The translations under genes and the position numbers were made by a program. From an uncultured Gemmiger sp. (GTDB lineage: Bacteria > Bacillota > Clostridia > Oscillospirales > Ruminococcaceae), in the NCBI GenBank assembly GCA_944388135.1, contig CALXHP010000075.1:1-40444 (forward strand): 40,444 nucleotides of DNA. The letters are read 5' to 3'. Below are positions 16,079-23,155 of the stretch, piece by piece (the first letter of the stretch is position 1; the number at the start of each line of letters is the position of its first letter). The notes beneath the pieces are model-generated. The model ran no database searches. It was not told the DNA's origin and worked only from the letters and a program-made list of their open reading frames with translations.

Positions 16079-19000
16079 TCAGTAGGTTGTAATGGTCGTA
16101 CCGGGATAGTAGTGCAGCAGGATATCCTGATAGCCCCAACCGTTGCGGGCATAACCAATGGCCCCCCACTGACTCATACCGCAGCCGTGGCCGTACCCGT
16201 ACACATTGAAAATGAAACAGTCCAGGCTGGCGTCATAACTGACGGTAAAGCACTGGCTGCGCAAGCTGCGGCCGTCCACGCTTTGCCGTGCCAGAAGATT
16301 TTCACGGAACCATCTTCCGCTGACGGTCTGACTGTTGCCGTCCGGACCCACCTGAATTTTGGACACCCAGCCATATTGGTTGGCCGAAATGATCTTGAAC
16401 CAGTTGTTGGGGTCTACACCGGACAGATCAATGCCCAGTTCCGATTTGATACGGTCCTGCAGCGTCTGGCGGGAGAACCGTGCCGTACCGCTGGTGTTGC
16501 CGTTGGTATTCCAGTTGGTCGCCACCGACTGATCGTAAGGGCTGTCCACTGCCTGCAGCCAGGGGCGGTCGTTGCCCCAGACGTCCGCGGCAGAAGCCGT
16601 GCCCGTGCTGGCCGATGCAAAATAGGGCGTAAAGCAGACCTGCCCGTTGTAAGTAACCAGGACATGCGCCACTTCCTGGGCGGCAGCCAGAGCCGCTGCT
16701 CCCGGTGTGGTGCCCGCCACCGAGGGATACCCGGACTGGCTGAGAATCCAGCAATGGGTCGCCACACACTGAGCCTTATAGGCCTCGGCCGGGGCATTGG
16801 AGCCCAGCTCGTTCTGAGCCACCATGGCCAGGCACTGTACCAGGTCCATGGTCTGGGCGGTACCGTTCATCGTAACGTTGATGGTCTCCCCCGCTGCGCT
16901 GCTGCCGCCGCCGGAATCGGTGGAGGAACTGCTGTCACCGCTTTCGCCGGATACTGCTTCCTCGGTGGGGGCCGGGGTCGGCGATGTGGCGATCTGGTCT
17001 ACCGTAACGGTCTGTTCCGGCAAACCGCCCTCGGCACCCTGGCTGAGGTCCGATTCCGTCTCGTTTCCGGAACCCGCCAGATCGGTCAGGCCTGCCAGCA
17101 GTTTATCGGTACTGGCAATAATGGCATCCGTCTGCGCCTGCATATCGGCAATCTGAGAGTCCAGATCGGTGTCGGATTCCTCCTGCTGGGCCTGGGCATT
17201 GTTACGGTTGGCCGAACTGGCCGCGCTCTGCTGGGCATACCGCCCCACACTGGCGCTGAGCAGGCTGCTGACCGTAGGCATAGGCTGTTCCTTGCGCTGG
17301 TACTGCAGGGCCGTCAGAAGCGGTTCTTCCGCCGCGGTGATGGAAGCGCCGCTCAGCGCAGCACTTTCTTCCTCACCGATCATCCGCCCCGTCACACAAA
17401 GGAGGATACCTTCCTCGCTGGTCGTACTGGTCAGCGTCAGGAACCGGGATTCATCGCCGATTTCCACGTCTGTCTGCCAGAGGCTCCGGGCCTGGATACC
17501 GGCCACAAAGGAAAGATAATCATAATAGTTGGAAAGGTCTGTACTGCCGTACAGATCAAACGCGCCTTCCCCTTCTTCGGTGGGGTCCAGATAGTAGACC
17601 GCGACCACCTTAAAACGGTAGGTACCGCTTTGCAGATAGAGGGTAAAGCCGCTGTTGGCCTTGATGACGTCCTCCTGCGCCAGCGAAGCATAGGTGTTGC
17701 CGGTGCATTCCAGCACCGTGTTCCCCGGCGCAGACAGGTCCAGCGCACTGGCACCCGCAAAACGGGTAATGACCGCGGGGGTACCGTTCTCCCTCGTTTC
17801 CGGGGCGGTTCCCGCCGCATACACCAGCGTGCCGTCCAGCCCGGGCCATCCCAGGTAGCCTACGGCTCCCGGCCGTTTTTCCAGCGCGTTGGCCAGATAG
17901 CTTTCGGCGGTTTCATCATAGGTTGTGGTCCCGTAATTTTTGGGTGCCGGACGGACGCCCAAATCGTTGCGGAAGAACCACCACAGCCCGACAGCCCCCG
18001 CCAGGATCACCAGCACAAGCAGCACCAAAATGGTCAGAACGGTACGGCGCTGCCGGCGTTCTGTCCGCTCGATCATGGCAAGGCTGCGATTTTTGATGCT
18101 GGATACTTCCGGAGGTTCCTCCCGTTCGCGGCGGGGCACCGTCTCCGTTCTGGAGCGGCGGGCCGTCCGGGCCTGGGCAGCCGCCAGTTCCGCCTCATCC
18201 TCTTCCGAGAAAAGGCGTGTGGCCGCCCGGCTGAATTCTTCCGCACTGGTCGTACGCCCTGCGGCGGCATCGGCATCGTCTGCCGCCTGGGCAGCCGCCA
18301 GCGCCTGGGGGTCGATCTCGGCAGAAAAATCCGGGATGTCCTGGTCCAGAATGGACGGTGCGGGGGTGCTGCGGCCGCTGTACCCGGACGTCTCCCCTTC
18401 CTCCGGGGTCACCACCCGGCGACGGCGGGACGCACGGGCCGCCTGGGGCCCGGCCGTCTCGATGTTGGTGGGGTCGGTGTTGGGCGGAACGTTCTGGGTA
18501 AGGTCGGTTTCGAACTGGATCGTTCCCACCGGAACGGTGTTTTCCGTTGCAGGGGAAGTCGTATTCCGGGTCTGTTTCGGCGCGGCAGAGCGGGGCGGCA
18601 TCTGCGGCTCGGCGGTATCAAAATCCATCATGGGTTCAAAGTCCGCCGTGTGGTCACTCTCCTGGGTGGCAGGTGTGCGGCGGCGCAAAGAGAACCGCAC
18701 GGTATTGCCCCGCTCCCGTCCGGCTTCCGAAACCAGCAGCAGCGGCCGGTCCCGCCCGGGGCGGAAGGTGATACAGGAATCCGTCAGGCGCAGCCCCTGG
18801 AGGCGGCGGCGTAGCAGATCCAGGATCTGATTGCCAATGGCGGCGTCGTTCAGCTCCGGCGGCAATGCACAGGCCGCCGCACCATGGCGGTCACAGATCA
18901 GCACAAACGGGCACTGGCCCACCGTGGCCGGCATGTAGGCGGCAGCGAAATCCGCGCCCGTTACCTGAAGCGCCGACACTGCCCGCCCCGCAGCGGCCTG

Positions 19001-19465
19001 GACCACATCGCCGGGGAATTTTTTCAGCAGCTGCTGCGGCACCTTGATCTGGCGTTCCCGGTCCCCATTGGCGTAGCTTTCGGTGCCAAAATCAAATACC
19101 GATTCACTGTGGGCCAACGGCTGCAGCAAATTGCCCACCAGGCGGCCGGTGGTTTCATCCACGGCCACCAGCAGTTTGCGTTTTTGCAGCAGCAGGTCCA
19201 GGGTGGCCTGGGCCAGACTGGTCTCACCGGTGCCGAAAACGTCGTCCCCGAATTTGGCGTTGAGCTTCTGCACCCATTTATCGCAATATTGTTCGGCCAT
19301 GGCACGGTTGGGAGCGCTGACCTGTACGCAGACGGCAAATTCGCCGTCCCGTTCCAGCAGACGCAGGCCGGGGCAGCCGTCGTCGCGGGCCTGCCGCAAC
19401 ACGGCCGACACCTCGGCCGCCGTGGGACCGAATACGCGCAAAATTTTGAGTTGTGTGTTGACCAT
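16079..19465 (-). CDS. Large membrane protein: CinA-like domain, pseudo-sortase B and SpoIID domain
   Basis: The 1128-residue product has four parts. Residues 1-185 resemble the KH-like and C-terminal domains of CinA: LRVFG aligns with LRVLG of the neighbouring CinA, and VAVDETTGRLVGNLL aligns with ATAESCTGGMIAERI, but the active Ser and Cys are lost. Residues 260-470 are Pro/Ala-rich and charged. A membrane helix lies at 475-497. Residues 535-697 follow a sortase B pattern (YLGWPGLDGTLVY, NTVLECTGNTYASL, FKVVAVYYLD, FLTLTSTTSEEGILL); the His of GH and the Cys of LSTC are absent. Residues 860-1128 are a SpoIID domain ending with YGYGHGCGMSQWGA, with E886 as the likely catalytic Glu. So the SpoIID part should act on peptidoglycan outside, while the CinA-like part is inside. 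AAAGG precedes the ATG. Last gene of the operon. Confidence 0.85.
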   Translation of the reverse strand: MVNTQLKILRVFGPTAAEVSAVLRQARDDGCPGLRLLERDGEFAVCVQVSAPNRAMAEQYCDKWVQKLNAKFGDDVFGTGETSLAQATLDLLLQKRKLLVAVDETTGRLVGNLLQPLAHSESVFDFGTESYANGDRERQIKVPQQLLKKFPGDVVQAAAGRAVSALQVTGADFAAAYMPATVGQCPFVLICDRHGAAACALPPELNDAAIGNQILDLLRRRLQGLRLTDSCITFRPGRDRPLLLVSEAGRERGNTVRFSLRRRTPATQESDHTADFEPMMDFDTAEPQMPPRSAAPKQTRNTTSPATENTVPVGTIQFETDLTQNVPPNTDPTNIETAGPQAARASRRRRVVTPEEGETSGYSGRSTPAPSILDQDIPDFSAEIDPQALAAAQAADDADAAAGRTTSAEEFSRAATRLFSEEDEAELAAAQARTARRSRTETVPRREREEPPEVSSIKNRSLAMIERTERRQRRTVLTILVLLVLVILAGAVGLWWFFRNDLGVRPAPKNYGTTTYDETAESYLANALEKRPGAVGYLGWPGLDGTLVYAAGTAPETRENGTPAVITRFAGASALDLSAPGNTVLECTGNTYASLAQEDVIKANSGFTLYLQSGTYRFKVVAVYYLDPTEEGEGAFDLYGSTDLSNYYDYLSFVAGIQARSLWQTDVEIGDESRFLTLTSTTSEEGILLCVTGRMIGEEESAALSGASITAAEEPLLTALQYQRKEQPMPTVSSLLSASVGRYAQQSAASSANRNNAQAQQEESDTDLDSQIADMQAQTDAIIASTDKLLAGLTDLAGSGNETESDLSQGAEGGLPEQTVTVDQIATSPTPAPTEEAVSGESGDSSSSTDSGGGSSAAGETINVTMNGTAQTMDLVQCLAMVAQNELGSNAPAEAYKAQCVATHCWILSQSGYPSVAGTTPGAAALAAAQEVAHVLVTYNGQVCFTPYFASASTGTASAADVWGNDRPWLQAVDSPYDQSVATNWNTNGNTSGTARFSRQTLQDRIKSELGIDLSGVDPNNWFKIISANQYGWVSKIQVGPDGNSQTVSGRWFRENLLARQSVDGRSLRSQCFTVSYDASLDCFIFNVYGYGHGCGMSQWGAIGYARNGWGYQDILLHYYPGTTITTY

Positions 19466-19483: not shown

Positions 19484-20785
19484 TTAGATATTGCTCTCTT
19501 CCGGAGGAGTTTCCAGCGTAACGGCCATGCCGTCAGGGACAGGCAGCCCCAGCGCCATCCGGCGCAACAGATCCAGGGCATACAGCGCTGCCCGGGTGCG
19601 GATGATGCCCCGGTCGTGATATCCGCCCAGAGTCAACCGCATAAGCCAGCCGGTGTTGGTACGGGTATCGGCACCGGCCAGATAGACGGTGCCCACCGGT
19701 TTGCCCGGCAGCGCGCCCCCGGGGCCCGCAATGCCGGTGATGCCCACTGCCAGCTCGGCGCCCGATGCCCGGGCCGCGCCGAAGGCCATCGCCACCGCCA
19801 CCGGACCGGACACCACGTTATATTGCTCGATGAGGGCGGCATCCACCCCCAGCAGTTTCTGTTTGGCCACTTCGGCGTAGGTGACGAACCCGAAGCCGAA
19901 CACCTCGCTGGAGCCGGGCACATTGGTGATCCGTTCCGCGATCATGCCGCCGGTGCAGCTTTCCGCTGTGGCCGCATGGAGGCCCTTTTCCCGCAGGACC
20001 CGCACCACGGTGTATTCCAGGGCAGGAACGTCCACATCGTAGGCGGCATCCCCCAGAATGGCCCGGAACTTTTCCAGGTACGCATTGCAGGCCCGCTCTG
20101 CTTCCTCGGCGGTGGCTTCCCGGGCAGTGACCCGGATCTCGCTCTCCCCCGTCTTGCAGTAGATGGCTGCCGTGGGGTTGGTGCTTTCAAAGAGGGGCGC
20201 CACCTTGCTGGCAATGCTGCTCTCCCCGCCCAGGACCCGCAGGGTGCGGGAATGGATGGTGCAGTTCTGACGCTTTTGCAGTGCCGGACGGACCTGCTCG
20301 GTCCACATGGCTTTCATCTCCCGGGGGACGCCGGGCATCAGCACGGCACAGTGTCCCTGTGCATCTTCAAACCAGGCTCCGGGGGCGGTGCCGTAATCGT
20401 TGATGATTTTATGGCCGCGGGTGGGTACCATGGCCTGTTTGCGGTTGTTGGGGGTGGGATTGCGGTTGGTCCGGGCAAAAAAGGCGATGATCTTGTCCCA
20501 CTCTTCCTCGTCGAAGTGCAGAGTATCCCCGAAGGCTTCGGCCACCGTCTCTTTGGTAAGGTCGTCCTCGGTGGGGCCCAATCCCCCCGAAAACACCAGC
20601 AAATCACTGCGGCAGCGGGCCTGATTCACCAGTTCCCGCAGCCGTTCGGGGTTATCCCCGATCACATGCTGGTGCAGCACGCTGATGCCCAGCTCGGCCA
20701 GTTCTCTGCTCAGGAACTGGGCATTGGTATTGACGATATCCCCCAGCAGCAACTCTGTGCCTACACAAATGATCTCGGCAGTCAC
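19484..20785 (-). CDS. cinA: CinA (competence/damage-inducible protein, NMN deamidase)
   Basis: The 433-residue product has the N-terminal molybdopterin-binding-like domain (EIICVGTELLLGDIVNTNAQFL, then SGGLGPTEDDLTKE) and the C-terminal NMN amidohydrolase domain with ATAESCTGGMIAERI and GITGIAGPGG. It recycles the NMN made by DNA ligase and hydrolyses ADP-ribose in known members. It starts with GTG overlapping the thiI stop (GTGA). The gene after it encodes a protein with a degenerate copy of its C-terminal half. RecA, often next to cinA, is not here. Confidence 0.93.
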   Translation of the reverse strand: MTAEIICVGTELLLGDIVNTNAQFLSRELAELGISVLHQHVIGDNPERLRELVNQARCRSDLLVFSGGLGPTEDDLTKETVAEAFGDTLHFDEEEWDKIIAFFARTNRNPTPNNRKQAMVPTRGHKIINDYGTAPGAWFEDAQGHCAVLMPGVPREMKAMWTEQVRPALQKRQNCTIHSRTLRVLGGESSIASKVAPLFESTNPTAAIYCKTGESEIRVTAREATAEEAERACNAYLEKFRAILGDAAYDVDVPALEYTVVRVLREKGLHAATAESCTGGMIAERITNVPGSSEVFGFGFVTYAEVAKQKLLGVDAALIEQYNVVSGPVAVAMAFGAARASGAELAVGITGIAGPGGALPGKPVGTVYLAGADTRTNTGWLMRLTLGGYHDRGIIRTRAALYALDLLRRMALGLPVPDGMAVTLETPPEESNI

Positions 20786-21975
20786 AGCAAATCATCCTCT
20801 CCCATACGAATGGCGATCTTCTCCACCTGTTCGGCCGCTTCGGTCTCCAGTGCCTTCAGGTCCGGCATGCCTTCCTCCGCCGCCAGAATTTCGGCCAGCG
20901 TGGGGTTGGTCTTGGGATGGGGCGGCGTGAAGATGGTGCAGCAATCCTCATAGGGCTCGATGGATGTATCGAAGGTGCCGATCTTGCGGGAAAGGGCAAT
21001 GATCTCGGTCTTGTCCATGCCGATGCAGGGGCGCAGCACCGGCAGGTCCTGGGCTTCATCGGTACAGACCAGCGCCGCCATCGTCTGGCTGGCCACCTGG
21101 GCCAGGCTCTCGCCGGTGATCAGCGCCTGCAGTTCCAGCTTGTTGGCCACCTGGTTGGCGATGCGCAGCATGCTGCGGCGCATCAGCACGGTAAACAACA
21201 CATCGGGGGCATGGTCCCGGATGTATTCCTGGGGCTTGGTATAGGGCACCACAAAGAGGGTGCAGTTGCCGGTATACTCCACCAGTTCCTTGGCCAGTTT
21301 CTGGACCTTGAGCTTGGCCCGCAGGCTGGTATAGGGCGGGCTGGCGAAATGGATGTGATGCAGCGCCAGGCCGCGGCGGGCCATGCACCAGGCCGCCACG
21401 GGACTGTCGATACCGCCGGACAGCAGGTTCAGTGCCCGGCCGCTGGTTCCCACCGGCAATCCGCCGGCGGCATCCACCTTGGGGCCGTGGACATAGGCCG
21501 CATGATCCCGGATCTCCACCATGATCTCCAGCTGGGGATTGTGTACATCCACCCGCAGATGATGATGCTTGTCCAGCAGATAGGCTCCCAGTTCCCGGCA
21601 GATTTCCGGGCTTTTCATGGGATAGGACTTGTCGGCGCGTTTGGCTTCCACCTTGAAGGTGCGCAGCCCCCGCAGCGTCTGCCCCAGGTAAGCCTCGGCT
21701 GTTTCGCAGATGGCGGAAAATTCCTTGCTGCATTCCACGGCACGGCTCATCTTGACGATACCGAATACCCGGGAGATGCGGCGGAAAACCTCATCCATAT
21801 CCAGGTCGTCCTCCAACGGTTCGATGAAAACCGTGCTCTGGGCCTGGTACACTTTAAACTTGCCCAGAGGTTCCAGACGCCAGCGGATGATTTTGGCAAG
21901 ACGGGCTTCGAACTTGCCGCGGTTAAGGCCTTTCAGGGTCATTTCCCCCTGGTAGGCCAGAATGATTTCTTTCAT
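20782..21975 (-). CDS. thiI: tRNA 4-thiouridine synthetase ThiI
   Basis: The 397-residue product has a ferredoxin-like and THUMP domain (residues 1-165) that binds tRNA and a PP-loop ATPase domain with LLSGGIDSPVAAW (Ser186-Ser191). It adenylates U8 of tRNA and transfers sulfur. There is no C-terminal rhodanese domain, the normal short form in Firmicutes. C-terminal cysteines are present in PYEDCCTIFTP. The sulfur donor is the cysteine desulfurase encoded just upstream. The gene starts 22 bases after the nifS stop and overlaps cinA. Confidence 0.95.
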   Translation of the reverse strand: MKEIILAYQGEMTLKGLNRGKFEARLAKIIRWRLEPLGKFKVYQAQSTVFIEPLEDDLDMDEVFRRISRVFGIVKMSRAVECSKEFSAICETAEAYLGQTLRGLRTFKVEAKRADKSYPMKSPEICRELGAYLLDKHHHLRVDVHNPQLEIMVEIRDHAAYVHGPKVDAAGGLPVGTSGRALNLLSGGIDSPVAAWCMARRGLALHHIHFASPPYTSLRAKLKVQKLAKELVEYTGNCTLFVVPYTKPQEYIRDHAPDVLFTVLMRRSMLRIANQVANKLELQALITGESLAQVASQTMAALVCTDEAQDLPVLRPCIGMDKTEIIALSRKIGTFDTSIEPYEDCCTIFTPPHPKTNPTLAEILAAEEGMPDLKALETEAAEQVEKIAIRMGEDDLL

Positions 21976-21997: not shown

Positions 21998-23155
21998 TCA
22001 GATATGCTGCAGACTCTGCAGGCCGTTGTTCAGACCATCCAACAGCGCGTCCACGTCCTCGTCTGTGTTGTCTGCGCAGAAGCTTACCCGCAGCGCCGTG
22101 CGGATGGTCCGTTCATCACAGCCCATGGCTTCCAGCGTATGGCTGGGTTCGCCCTTGTCGCAGGCGCTGCCCCCCGACACAAGCACCCCGCGGGTGTTGA
22201 GATAATTGATAAAGGTCTGGCTGTTGATGCAGCCGGTGGAGAAGTTCAGCACTTCCGGAACGGCGTCCTCGGGAGAATTGACAGTGATGCCGGGCAGTGC
22301 AGCCAGGCCGGCCCGCAGGCGATGGTTCAGGGCCTGGATCTGCCGGGTGCGGGTACGCATGGCCTGATACCCTTTGGCCGCCGCCAGGCCCAGCCCCACG
22401 ATGTAGGGGGTGTTTTCCGTGCCGGGACGCAGGCCCCGCTCCTGATGACCGCCGCAGTAGGGCGGACGCAGCGTCTGACGCTGGCTGTCCCGGATAAACA
22501 AAGCACCGATCCCCTTGGGCGCATGGATCTTATGGCCGGAAACCGCCAGGGTATCCACCCCGGCCCACTTTTGCAGGTCGATGGGAATGCGCAGCCAGGC
22601 CTGCACCGCGTCCACATGGAAATGGGTGCGGCTGTTCCGGGCCTTGATACCGGCTGCCAAGGCCCCAATGTCCTGCACGGCACCGGTCTCATTGTTCACC
22701 GCCATGCAGGATGCCAGCACCGTGTTTTTGTCCACCGCTGCCAGGAACTTGTTCACGTCCAGGTGCCCGTCCGCTTCGGGCAGGATCTCCACAACGTTGA
22801 AGCCTTCGTTTTTCAGTGCACGGGCCGCAAGCTGCACGCTGGGGTGTTCAAAACCGGACACCACTACCTTGTTGCCCCAGTGCCGCCGGGGCATGGCTGC
22901 GCCCCAAACGGCCATATTGTTGCCTTCGGTGCCGCAGCCGGTAAAGTAGATCTCATCACTGCGGCAATGCAGTGTTTTGGCGATCCGGGCACGGGCGTTT
23001 TCGATGCCGTCCTGGGCAGCCACCGCCGGGTCGTACAGGCTGCTGGGATTGGCCCACAGTTCCACCAGCGCATCGTGGATGACCTCGGTCACCGCCGGGT
23101 CGATGCGGGTGGTTGCGGCATTATCCAGATAATGAAGCTGGGGGTCGGAAAGCAT
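21998..23155 (-). CDS. nifS: Cysteine desulfurase (NifS/IscS-like)
   Basis: The 385-residue PLP enzyme takes sulfur from cysteine as a persulfide. PLP Lys209 lies in AVSGHKIHAPKG and catalytic Cys332 in SGGSACDKGEPSHTL. HYLDNAATTRIDPAV at the start is typical. Its place before thiI marks it as the dedicated sulfur donor for tRNA thiolation. There is no iscU nearby, so Fe-S assembly is probably done elsewhere. GTGAGG precedes the start. Confidence 0.95.
   Translation of the reverse strand: MLSDPQLHYLDNAATTRIDPAVTEVIHDALVELWANPSSLYDPAVAAQDGIENARARIAKTLHCRSDEIYFTGCGTEGNNMAVWGAAMPRRHWGNKVVVSGFEHPSVQLAARALKNEGFNVVEILPEADGHLDVNKFLAAVDKNTVLASCMAVNNETGAVQDIGALAAGIKARNSRTHFHVDAVQAWLRIPIDLQKWAGVDTLAVSGHKIHAPKGIGALFIRDSQRQTLRPPYCGGHQERGLRPGTENTPYIVGLGLAAAKGYQAMRTRTRQIQALNHRLRAGLAALPGITVNSPEDAVPEVLNFSTGCINSQTFINYLNTRGVLVSGGSACDKGEPSHTLEAMGCDERTIRTALRVSFCADNTDEDVDALLDGLNNGLQSLQHI

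Follow-up and report, generated by a model that had tools for sequence, protein, structure and literature searches.

Among the nicotinamide mononucleotide (NMN) deamidases of the CinA/PncC type, CinA of A. tumefaciens was inactive as S31A and K63A mutants (PMC5384747, from which we take the residue numbering), and CinA of T. thermophilus was described as a dimer in which a glutamate of the KH domain stabilises the Mg of ADP-ribose (PMC4246079). CinA is reported to be fused to other domains now and then, in a work whose main text never uses the word "sortase" (PMC3855486). For the lytic transglycosylase SpoIID, the catalytic glutamate was assigned to E101 in C. difficile (PMC6221140). Here, we analyse a stretch of DNA of 40,444 nucleotides, called the window, from an uncultured Gemmiger sp. 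(assembly GCA_944388135.1, contig CALXHP010000075.1, positions 1 to 40,444), a genus placed by NCBI in the Eubacteriales, Oscillospiraceae. Its minus strand encodes a 1128-residue protein with relatives of CinA, class B sortase (SrtB) and SpoIID. With a probability of roughly 0.55, we propose that this putative single-pass membrane protein is a collapsed cinA-srtB-spoIID cassette, with pseudoenzyme modules carried on a wall enzyme.

Three well-known enzyme families would thus be joined in a gut-bacterial genus. In the open-access literature no paper joining them was found, be it CinA with SpoIID, cinA with srtB or class B sortase with SpoIID, in agreement with a preceding sequence-only reading of the window that had known of no system coupling CinA-type sensing to SpoIID. 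Among open-access titles and abstract openings, nothing relevant appeared for CinA-sortase fusion, CinA-sortase cell wall, SpoIID-sortase or Gemmiger-sortase.

Results

Profile matches place the three families CinA, SrtB and SpoIID within one open reading frame (ORF), in the same order as in the gene cassette described below. The features of the fusion protein are:

16079..19465, minus strand: fusion ORF, 1128 aa (KH-CinA_C-like, linker, transmembrane helix, SrtB-like, linker, SpoIID)
19226..19447, minus strand: KH-like domain, residues 7-80 (Pfam CinA_KH and hhalign to CinA)
18770..19222, minus strand: degenerate CinA_C (NMN deamidase) domain, residues 82-232 (Pfam CinA, PDB 6mr3, hhalign)
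19142..19162, minus strand: former catalytic loop AESCTGG, now VDETTGR, residues 102-108 (numbering via 2a9s alignment and PMC5384747)
18056..18760, minus strand: variable cytosolic linker, probably disordered, residues 236-470 (alignment, dN/dS)
17972..18040, minus strand: transmembrane helix, residues 476-498 (mean hydropathy 3.09 over 19 residues)
17300..17920, minus strand: degenerate class B sortase-like domain, residues 516-722 (about; profile against PDB SrtB, hhalign against fused SrtB)
16892..17299, minus strand: variable linker, probably extracellular, residues 723-858 (alignment)
16082..16891, minus strand: SpoIID lytic transglycosylase domain, residues 859-1128 (TIGR02669, PDB SpoIID)

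Directly before the transmembrane helix stands RRQRRT, which suggests an N-in, C-out topology.

The N-terminus had been read as a degenerate CinA sequence fused to a membrane SpoIID protein beside cinA, and this was borne out by Pfam, BLASTP and profile matches. In a search of residues 1-255, Pfam CinA matched residues 82-176 above its cut-off (5.9e-7, 29.7 bits, cut-off 23.5) and CinA_KH matched residues 7-78 just below its own (2.2e-5, 24.9 bits, cut-off 27). For the whole fusion protein, the NCBIfam model CinA PRK00549 gave 1.4e-15, far below the whole-protein cut-off of that model. BLASTP aligned the protein with the neighbouring CinA at 22% identity over 170 columns (E 1e-8) and reproduced the previously noted pairings of LRVFG with LRVLG, GDDVF with GDAAY and SESVFDFG with SSEVFGFG. 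Furthermore, a profile of the CinA-like region from 25 sequences (A1; profiles A1-A3 were built without locus L049, and the order and families of our survey are coded by G, g, f and L codes) found CinA 6mr3 in the PDB at 1.4e-14. The profile-profile comparison that had been proposed as a check, of A1 with a 13-sequence CinA profile by hhalign, gave 99.6% and E 7e-24 for residues 6-232, whereas the control with a SpoIID alignment showed no relation (0.1%, E 0.53). As judged from these matches, residues ~6-232 are a KH plus CinA_C domain; the homology hence stands, but the domain reaches ~232 and does not end at residue 185 as first assumed. No Pfam match to the N-terminal MoCF (COG1058) domain was obtained in the fusion protein, which begins at the KH domain. 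That the likeness to CinA reflects chance, or a generic KH fold only, is hardly conceivable: CinA_KH by itself indeed stays just below its cut-off, but the Pfam CinA match and both profile E-values speak against such a view, the fusions of G048, G376 and G045 have a CinA match in the corresponding position, and the clean SpoIID control ruled out chance similarity.

The Ser31/Lys63 dyad of NMN deamidases is absent from the fusion protein. In the A1 alignment, the Ser31 position is Glu (Glu104 in the window protein) in 25/25 homologues and the E30 position Asp (Asp103) in 24 of the 25, with T33 and G34 (Thr106, Gly107) retained in all. The Lys63 position varies (K 7, R 5, others 13 of 25; R136 in the window). 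The VDETTGR loop is thus remodelled and fixed, not randomly altered. The Ser48 position is Glu in 23/25 homologues, and that of Tyr58 is aromatic throughout (Y 19, W 6). The TGIAGP loop was not found in the Gemmiger rows of the active-site table. Loss of both the AESCTGG serine and the GIAGP loop, as claimed previously, was thus confirmed.

In eight hand-picked close pairs, the ratio of nonsynonymous to synonymous substitution rates (dN/dS; values are rough) was 0.02-0.17 for the KH, 0.04-0.24 for the CinA_C-like, 0.07-0.38 for the SrtB-like and 0.03-0.19 for the SpoIID domain, and 0.18-0.83 for the linkers. Mean column identity (CinA-like 75%, SrtB-like 56%, SpoIID 87%) ranks the domains in agreement with dN/dS. 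These comparisons suggest that purifying selection acts on the Gemmiger CinA-like module.

The degenerate sortase domain had been overlooked in the sequence-only reading. Its profile A2 found class B sortases in the PDB from 6.6e-8, covering the C-terminal half of the domain, and hhalign matched it, over most of its length, with the fused SrtB from other genera (2.6e-15). The NCBIfam model sortase_srtB (TIGR03064) matched the fusion protein at 1.5e-5, far below its whole-protein cut-off, and Pfam Sortase gave no match there. At the positions of the presumably catalytic His, Cys and Arg, which were defined from the motifs of intact fused SrtB rows, the window protein has T588, T681 and L688; among the 25 rows of A2, His is kept in one, Cys in none and Arg in 8. 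By these alignments, residues 516-722 are homologous to class B sortase, without its catalytic residues.

TIGR02669 (SpoIID_LytB) recognised the C-terminal domain above its cut-off (1.3e-31, 110.6 bits, cut-off 83.3), Pfam SpoIID remained below (19.2 bits, cut-off 23), and a SpoIID profile matched PDB SpoIID at 9e-24. The position equated by alignment with the catalytic glutamate (Glu28 of the domain, NEL motif) is invariant in 23/23 sequences, and the GHGxGMSQ motif is retained as GHGCGMSQ. Fused proteins having SpoIID in the active-site table all keep the glutamate position except that of G285 (QNAIN), which counts as fused solely via a weak CINA match (6e-5). As read from these motifs, the SpoIID domain is apparently an intact lytic transglycosylase. 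A role of the fusion protein in sporulation is possible because Spo0A_C was matched in 14/14 genomes searched; against it stand at least one further SpoIID match in each of these 14 genomes and a score of 109.8 bits with the sporulation equivalog TIGR02870, far below the cut-off of 234.75. In the SpoIID tree, the other SpoIID of the window's genome (G000 C15) falls into a different clade.

Upstream of the fusion ORF, 18 bp away, lies cinA, and the minus-strand order from 23155 to 16079 is cysteine desulfurase-like gene, thiI, cinA, fusion ORF:

19484..20785, minus strand: cinA, 433 aa, MoCF-KH-CinA_C, AESCTGG kept (Pfam)
20782..21975, minus strand: thiI, 4-bp overlap with cinA (Pfam ThiI 3.9e-65)
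21998..23155, minus strand: class V aminotransferase gene, cysteine desulfurase-like (Pfam Aminotran_5 9.7e-73), which we take to be nifS

All 35 genomes searched within the genus, counting that of the window, had both the fused domain and a second CinA match. A scan of named genomes gave 31 loci (28 Gemmiger, 2 Subdoligranulum, 1 Oscillospiraceae bacterium) with up to 94% identity, among them Gemmiger formicilis ATCC 27749. We inspected 25 loci, 23 from Gemmiger plus G042 and G046 from other genera, whose fusions are cut by contig ends ahead of SpoIID. At all 25, cinA adjoins the fusion directly upstream. The neighbouring cinA has both Ser and Lys in 26/26 cases (the 25 loci and L047). SpoIID forms the C-terminus of all 24 full-length Gemmiger-type proteins aligned (window and 23 others), and in G359, from another genus, the entire fusion occupies 977 aa, again with cinA directly upstream.

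The four genomes inspected from genus g48 feature, after cinA, an ORF of 294-354 aa with a degenerate CinA match and with no sortase or SpoIID match (L141:6452-7429, L199:2463-3422, L200:2524-3585, L201:2065-2946). For L200 and L201, the CinA match is weak and not confirmed by Pfam; the ORFs of L141 and L199 end ~40 residues past a membrane helix.

Order-wide searches yield best matches only, and cassettes were hence counted in an 80-genus sample (one genome per even-numbered genus, first 80 of 89). CinA occurred in 75 of the 80 genera. The CinA ORF also contained SrtB and/or SpoIID in 6/75, and srtB was the next gene after cinA in 10/75, seven of these ten having separate cinA>srtB>spoIID genes; in 3/75, the contig ended within 1 kb of cinA. 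SpoIID was present in the ORF or ≤6 kb downstream in 11 of the 16 fused-or-adjacent genera. Linked genera were found in family f1, that of the window (9/13), and in f4 (1/1), f9 (1/1), f16 (1/7) and f24 (4/9). Upstream of cinA, thiI is found ≤6 kb away at 10/10 adjacent-srtB loci and ≤400 bp away in 35/61 other CinA rows; nifS-thiI-cinA hence looks like an older core. By gene order, that of the fusion, CinA-SrtB-SpoIID, is the order of the cassette thiI-cinA-srtB-spoIID of related families. In a search of the class (291 genomes, E <=1e-30), no match outside the order started before profile position 26, and thus no CinA-SrtB fusion was seen there.

Intermediates between cassette and Gemmiger fusion exist. 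Motif-intact CinA-SrtB ORFs occur in G035, G039, G051, G062, G070, G085, G100, G205 and three more f4 genomes, with variants that have only CinA_C (G039), lack MoCF (G062, G070) or carry AESCTAG (G205). A single ORF of 1046 aa in G048 joins an intact CinA to a dead SrtB and to SpoIID; in the 1121-aa protein of G376, CinA is degenerate (GEASTGG), SrtB is intact and SpoIID is present; G045 has degenerate CinA (AENGTGG) with SpoIID and no sortase match. A fused CinA with intact Ser/Lys motifs is the sole CinA match in 11/11 genomes (G048, G035, G039, G085, G070, G095, G113, G076, G062, G100, G205). A degenerate fused or stub CinA is accompanied in the genome by a free cinA that has both Ser and Lys (8/8 genomes: G218, G376, G045, G042, G046, G359, G277, G239); G341 and G388 fit too, with weak stubs (custom profile 4.4e-5 and 2e-6) that have no Pfam match.

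Several further arrangements were seen. The 1.3-Mb genome G335 (L202:1529-6000) has an aminotransferase V gene (nifS), thiI, srtB and spoIID in a row and no CinA match in the genome. In G035, G257 and G039, the SpoIID beside cinA-srtB appears circularly permuted, the GHGxGMSQ end preceding the catalytic-Glu part (L036:8232-9758, L124:1805-4129, L154:2734-3987). G218 encodes two further fusions, a MoCF/KH remnant-transmembrane-SrtB-SpoIID protein of 956 aa (L197:63-2930) and a degenerate CinA-SrtB-Big_2 protein of 1153 aa (L176:4141-7599), in addition to a free cinA. A short CinA_C gene, three srtB and spoIID follow each other in G115 (L127:6014-11200), and G062 (L041:5172-10167) has a Big_9 Ig-like domain on its CinA-SrtB protein and Big_2 on the neighbouring SpoIID protein.

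In a SpoIID tree of 39 rows, with Gemmiger rows thinned, the Gemmiger fusion groups with 12 of 15 cinA-linked SpoIIDs at 98% support in the Shimodaira-Hasegawa-like approximate likelihood ratio test, and the opposite side of the tree holds the 10 unlinked SpoIIDs retained by the filter. The linked group includes the 956-aa protein of G218, linked solely by its own MoCF/KH remnant. Support for placing Gemmiger SpoIID close to G048 and G376 is moderate (85, 80), and the group also holds one separate-gene row, G257. In a quick CinA tree, again with Gemmiger thinned, long branches left the degenerate clade unplaced, and constrained trees were likelier than the quick free tree. For the approximately unbiased (AU) test, we removed long-branch rows (L141 stub, L176, L158) and used a longer tree search, of which the free and one constrained run were incomplete. 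It rejected neither a degenerate domain sister to the neighbouring cinA (p 0.32) nor one sister to G376/G045 (p 0.36), and duplication from the neighbouring cinA, as first suggested, is hence a possible origin.

Discussion

The fusion protein would have its CinA part in the cytosol and the remainder outside the cell. Its working enzyme would be the SpoIID part, acting as a lytic transglycosylase on glycan strands, with the pseudo-sortase as a spacer or docking piece. Pseudo-CinA is most likely an anchor or dimerisation module of this membrane lytic transglycosylase: it may bring chains together by self-association or, perhaps, through the co-encoded CinA, and such pairing would anchor the wall enzyme and set its geometry. 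We propose dimerisation because CinA of T. thermophilus is dimeric (PMC4246079). As for its origin, the intermediates suggest that the neighbours nifS-thiI-cinA-srtB-spoIID became fused in several lineages, that fused CinA may have decayed to a pseudoenzyme where a separate cinA provided the enzyme activity, and that the sortase may have decayed likewise in some lineages.

Other functions of the CinA-like part must be weighed. The degenerate CinA_C may still bind a pyridine nucleotide or related ligand and relay its presence through the membrane to the wall enzyme, in line with the possible nucleotide sensing raised in the sequence-only reading. The loop is fixed (Glu104, Thr106 and Gly107 in all homologues, Asp103 in all but one) and the Tyr58 position constantly aromatic; the pocket region is thus conserved and has not drifted, which favours ligand sensing. 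We nevertheless consider it unlikely, as the Lys63 position is variable, the Ser48 position is mostly Glu, the TGIAGP loop was not found in Gemmiger rows and, in the hhalign alignment, the fusion does not keep the KH glutamate that in T. thermophilus CinA stabilises the Mg of ADP-ribose (PMC4246079). A bolder and rather unlikely reading is that these clostridia link pyridine-nucleotide metabolism to the wall across the membrane: CinA, active or pseudoenzyme, would feed from the cytosol into a machine of sortase and SpoIID at the wall, first through a cassette, then within one protein, and this input would have been retained after catalysis was lost.

Pseudo-CinA could also pair with the active CinA of the adjacent gene and so tether an NMN deamidase/ADP-ribose pyrophosphatase at the membrane. 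The directly upstream cinA at all 25 loci, in G359 and in the four g48 genomes would fit, as would the dimeric state of T. thermophilus CinA (PMC4246079). Such tethering is quite improbable, though, given that the free cinA is on another contig in G376, G045 and G218 and that 22% identity of the two window domains makes a shared interface doubtful. Alternatively, the CinA and sortase parts might be mere leftovers of fusion that serve only folding, coupled translation or membrane targeting. Both have lost their catalytic residues and the SrtB-like part is the least conserved domain, as expected for leftovers; the conservation and low dN/dS of the CinA-like part and the persistence of a degenerate CinA-like ORF in g48 without the wall half make this very doubtful.

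Several observations weigh against the collapsed-cassette proposal itself. The cinA-linked SpoIIDs of G035, G062 and G085 group with unlinked ones, so that the cassette was probably assembled more than once, and nine SpoIID loci retrieved in addition (L188-L196) were filtered out, so that the tree lacks them. The stretch of up to 6 kb downstream of cinA showed no srtB in 56 of the 75 genera. The sortase signal is modest, and the PDB list of A2 also holds antibody chains from 1.5e-5, which we take as chance matches. Concerning selection, dS reaches 1.24 in the hand-picked pairs, and the equally rough all-pairs dN/dS medians, limited to dS 0.05-1, are higher for KH (0.30) and CinA_C-like (0.35), next to 0.58 for SrtB-like, 0.23 for SpoIID and 0.62/0.79 for the linkers. 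Four of the sole-copy genomes are incomplete (G100 60%, G113 75%, G085 81%, G035 84%), and a second cinA copy may thus have been missed. Finally, g48 kept the degenerate CinA-like ORF with the wall half gone, which argues against this part serving SpoIID alone.

Together, the fusions offer a natural gradation that begins with intact motifs and ends with pseudoenzymes. Since intact, half-dead and dead versions coexist, the role of a cytosolic CinA module for a wall enzyme is directly testable.

Compared with CinA/PncC (NMN deamidase; PF02464, PF18146, PF00994), the fusion protein shares KH and CinA_C in like domain order; in contrast to them, it has no MoCF domain, catalytic Ser or TGIAGP loop, its Lys position is variable, and it is joined to a membrane wall protein. 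Class B sortases (TIGR03064, PF04203) can be aligned with its central part, but His, Cys and Arg are missing in the window protein, whereas most fused SrtB of other genera retain this triad, that of G048 being without it. With SpoIID/LytB (TIGR02669, PF08486), the full domain, the Glu position and GHGxGMSQ are held in common; here, however, they form the C-terminal part of a large bitopic protein.

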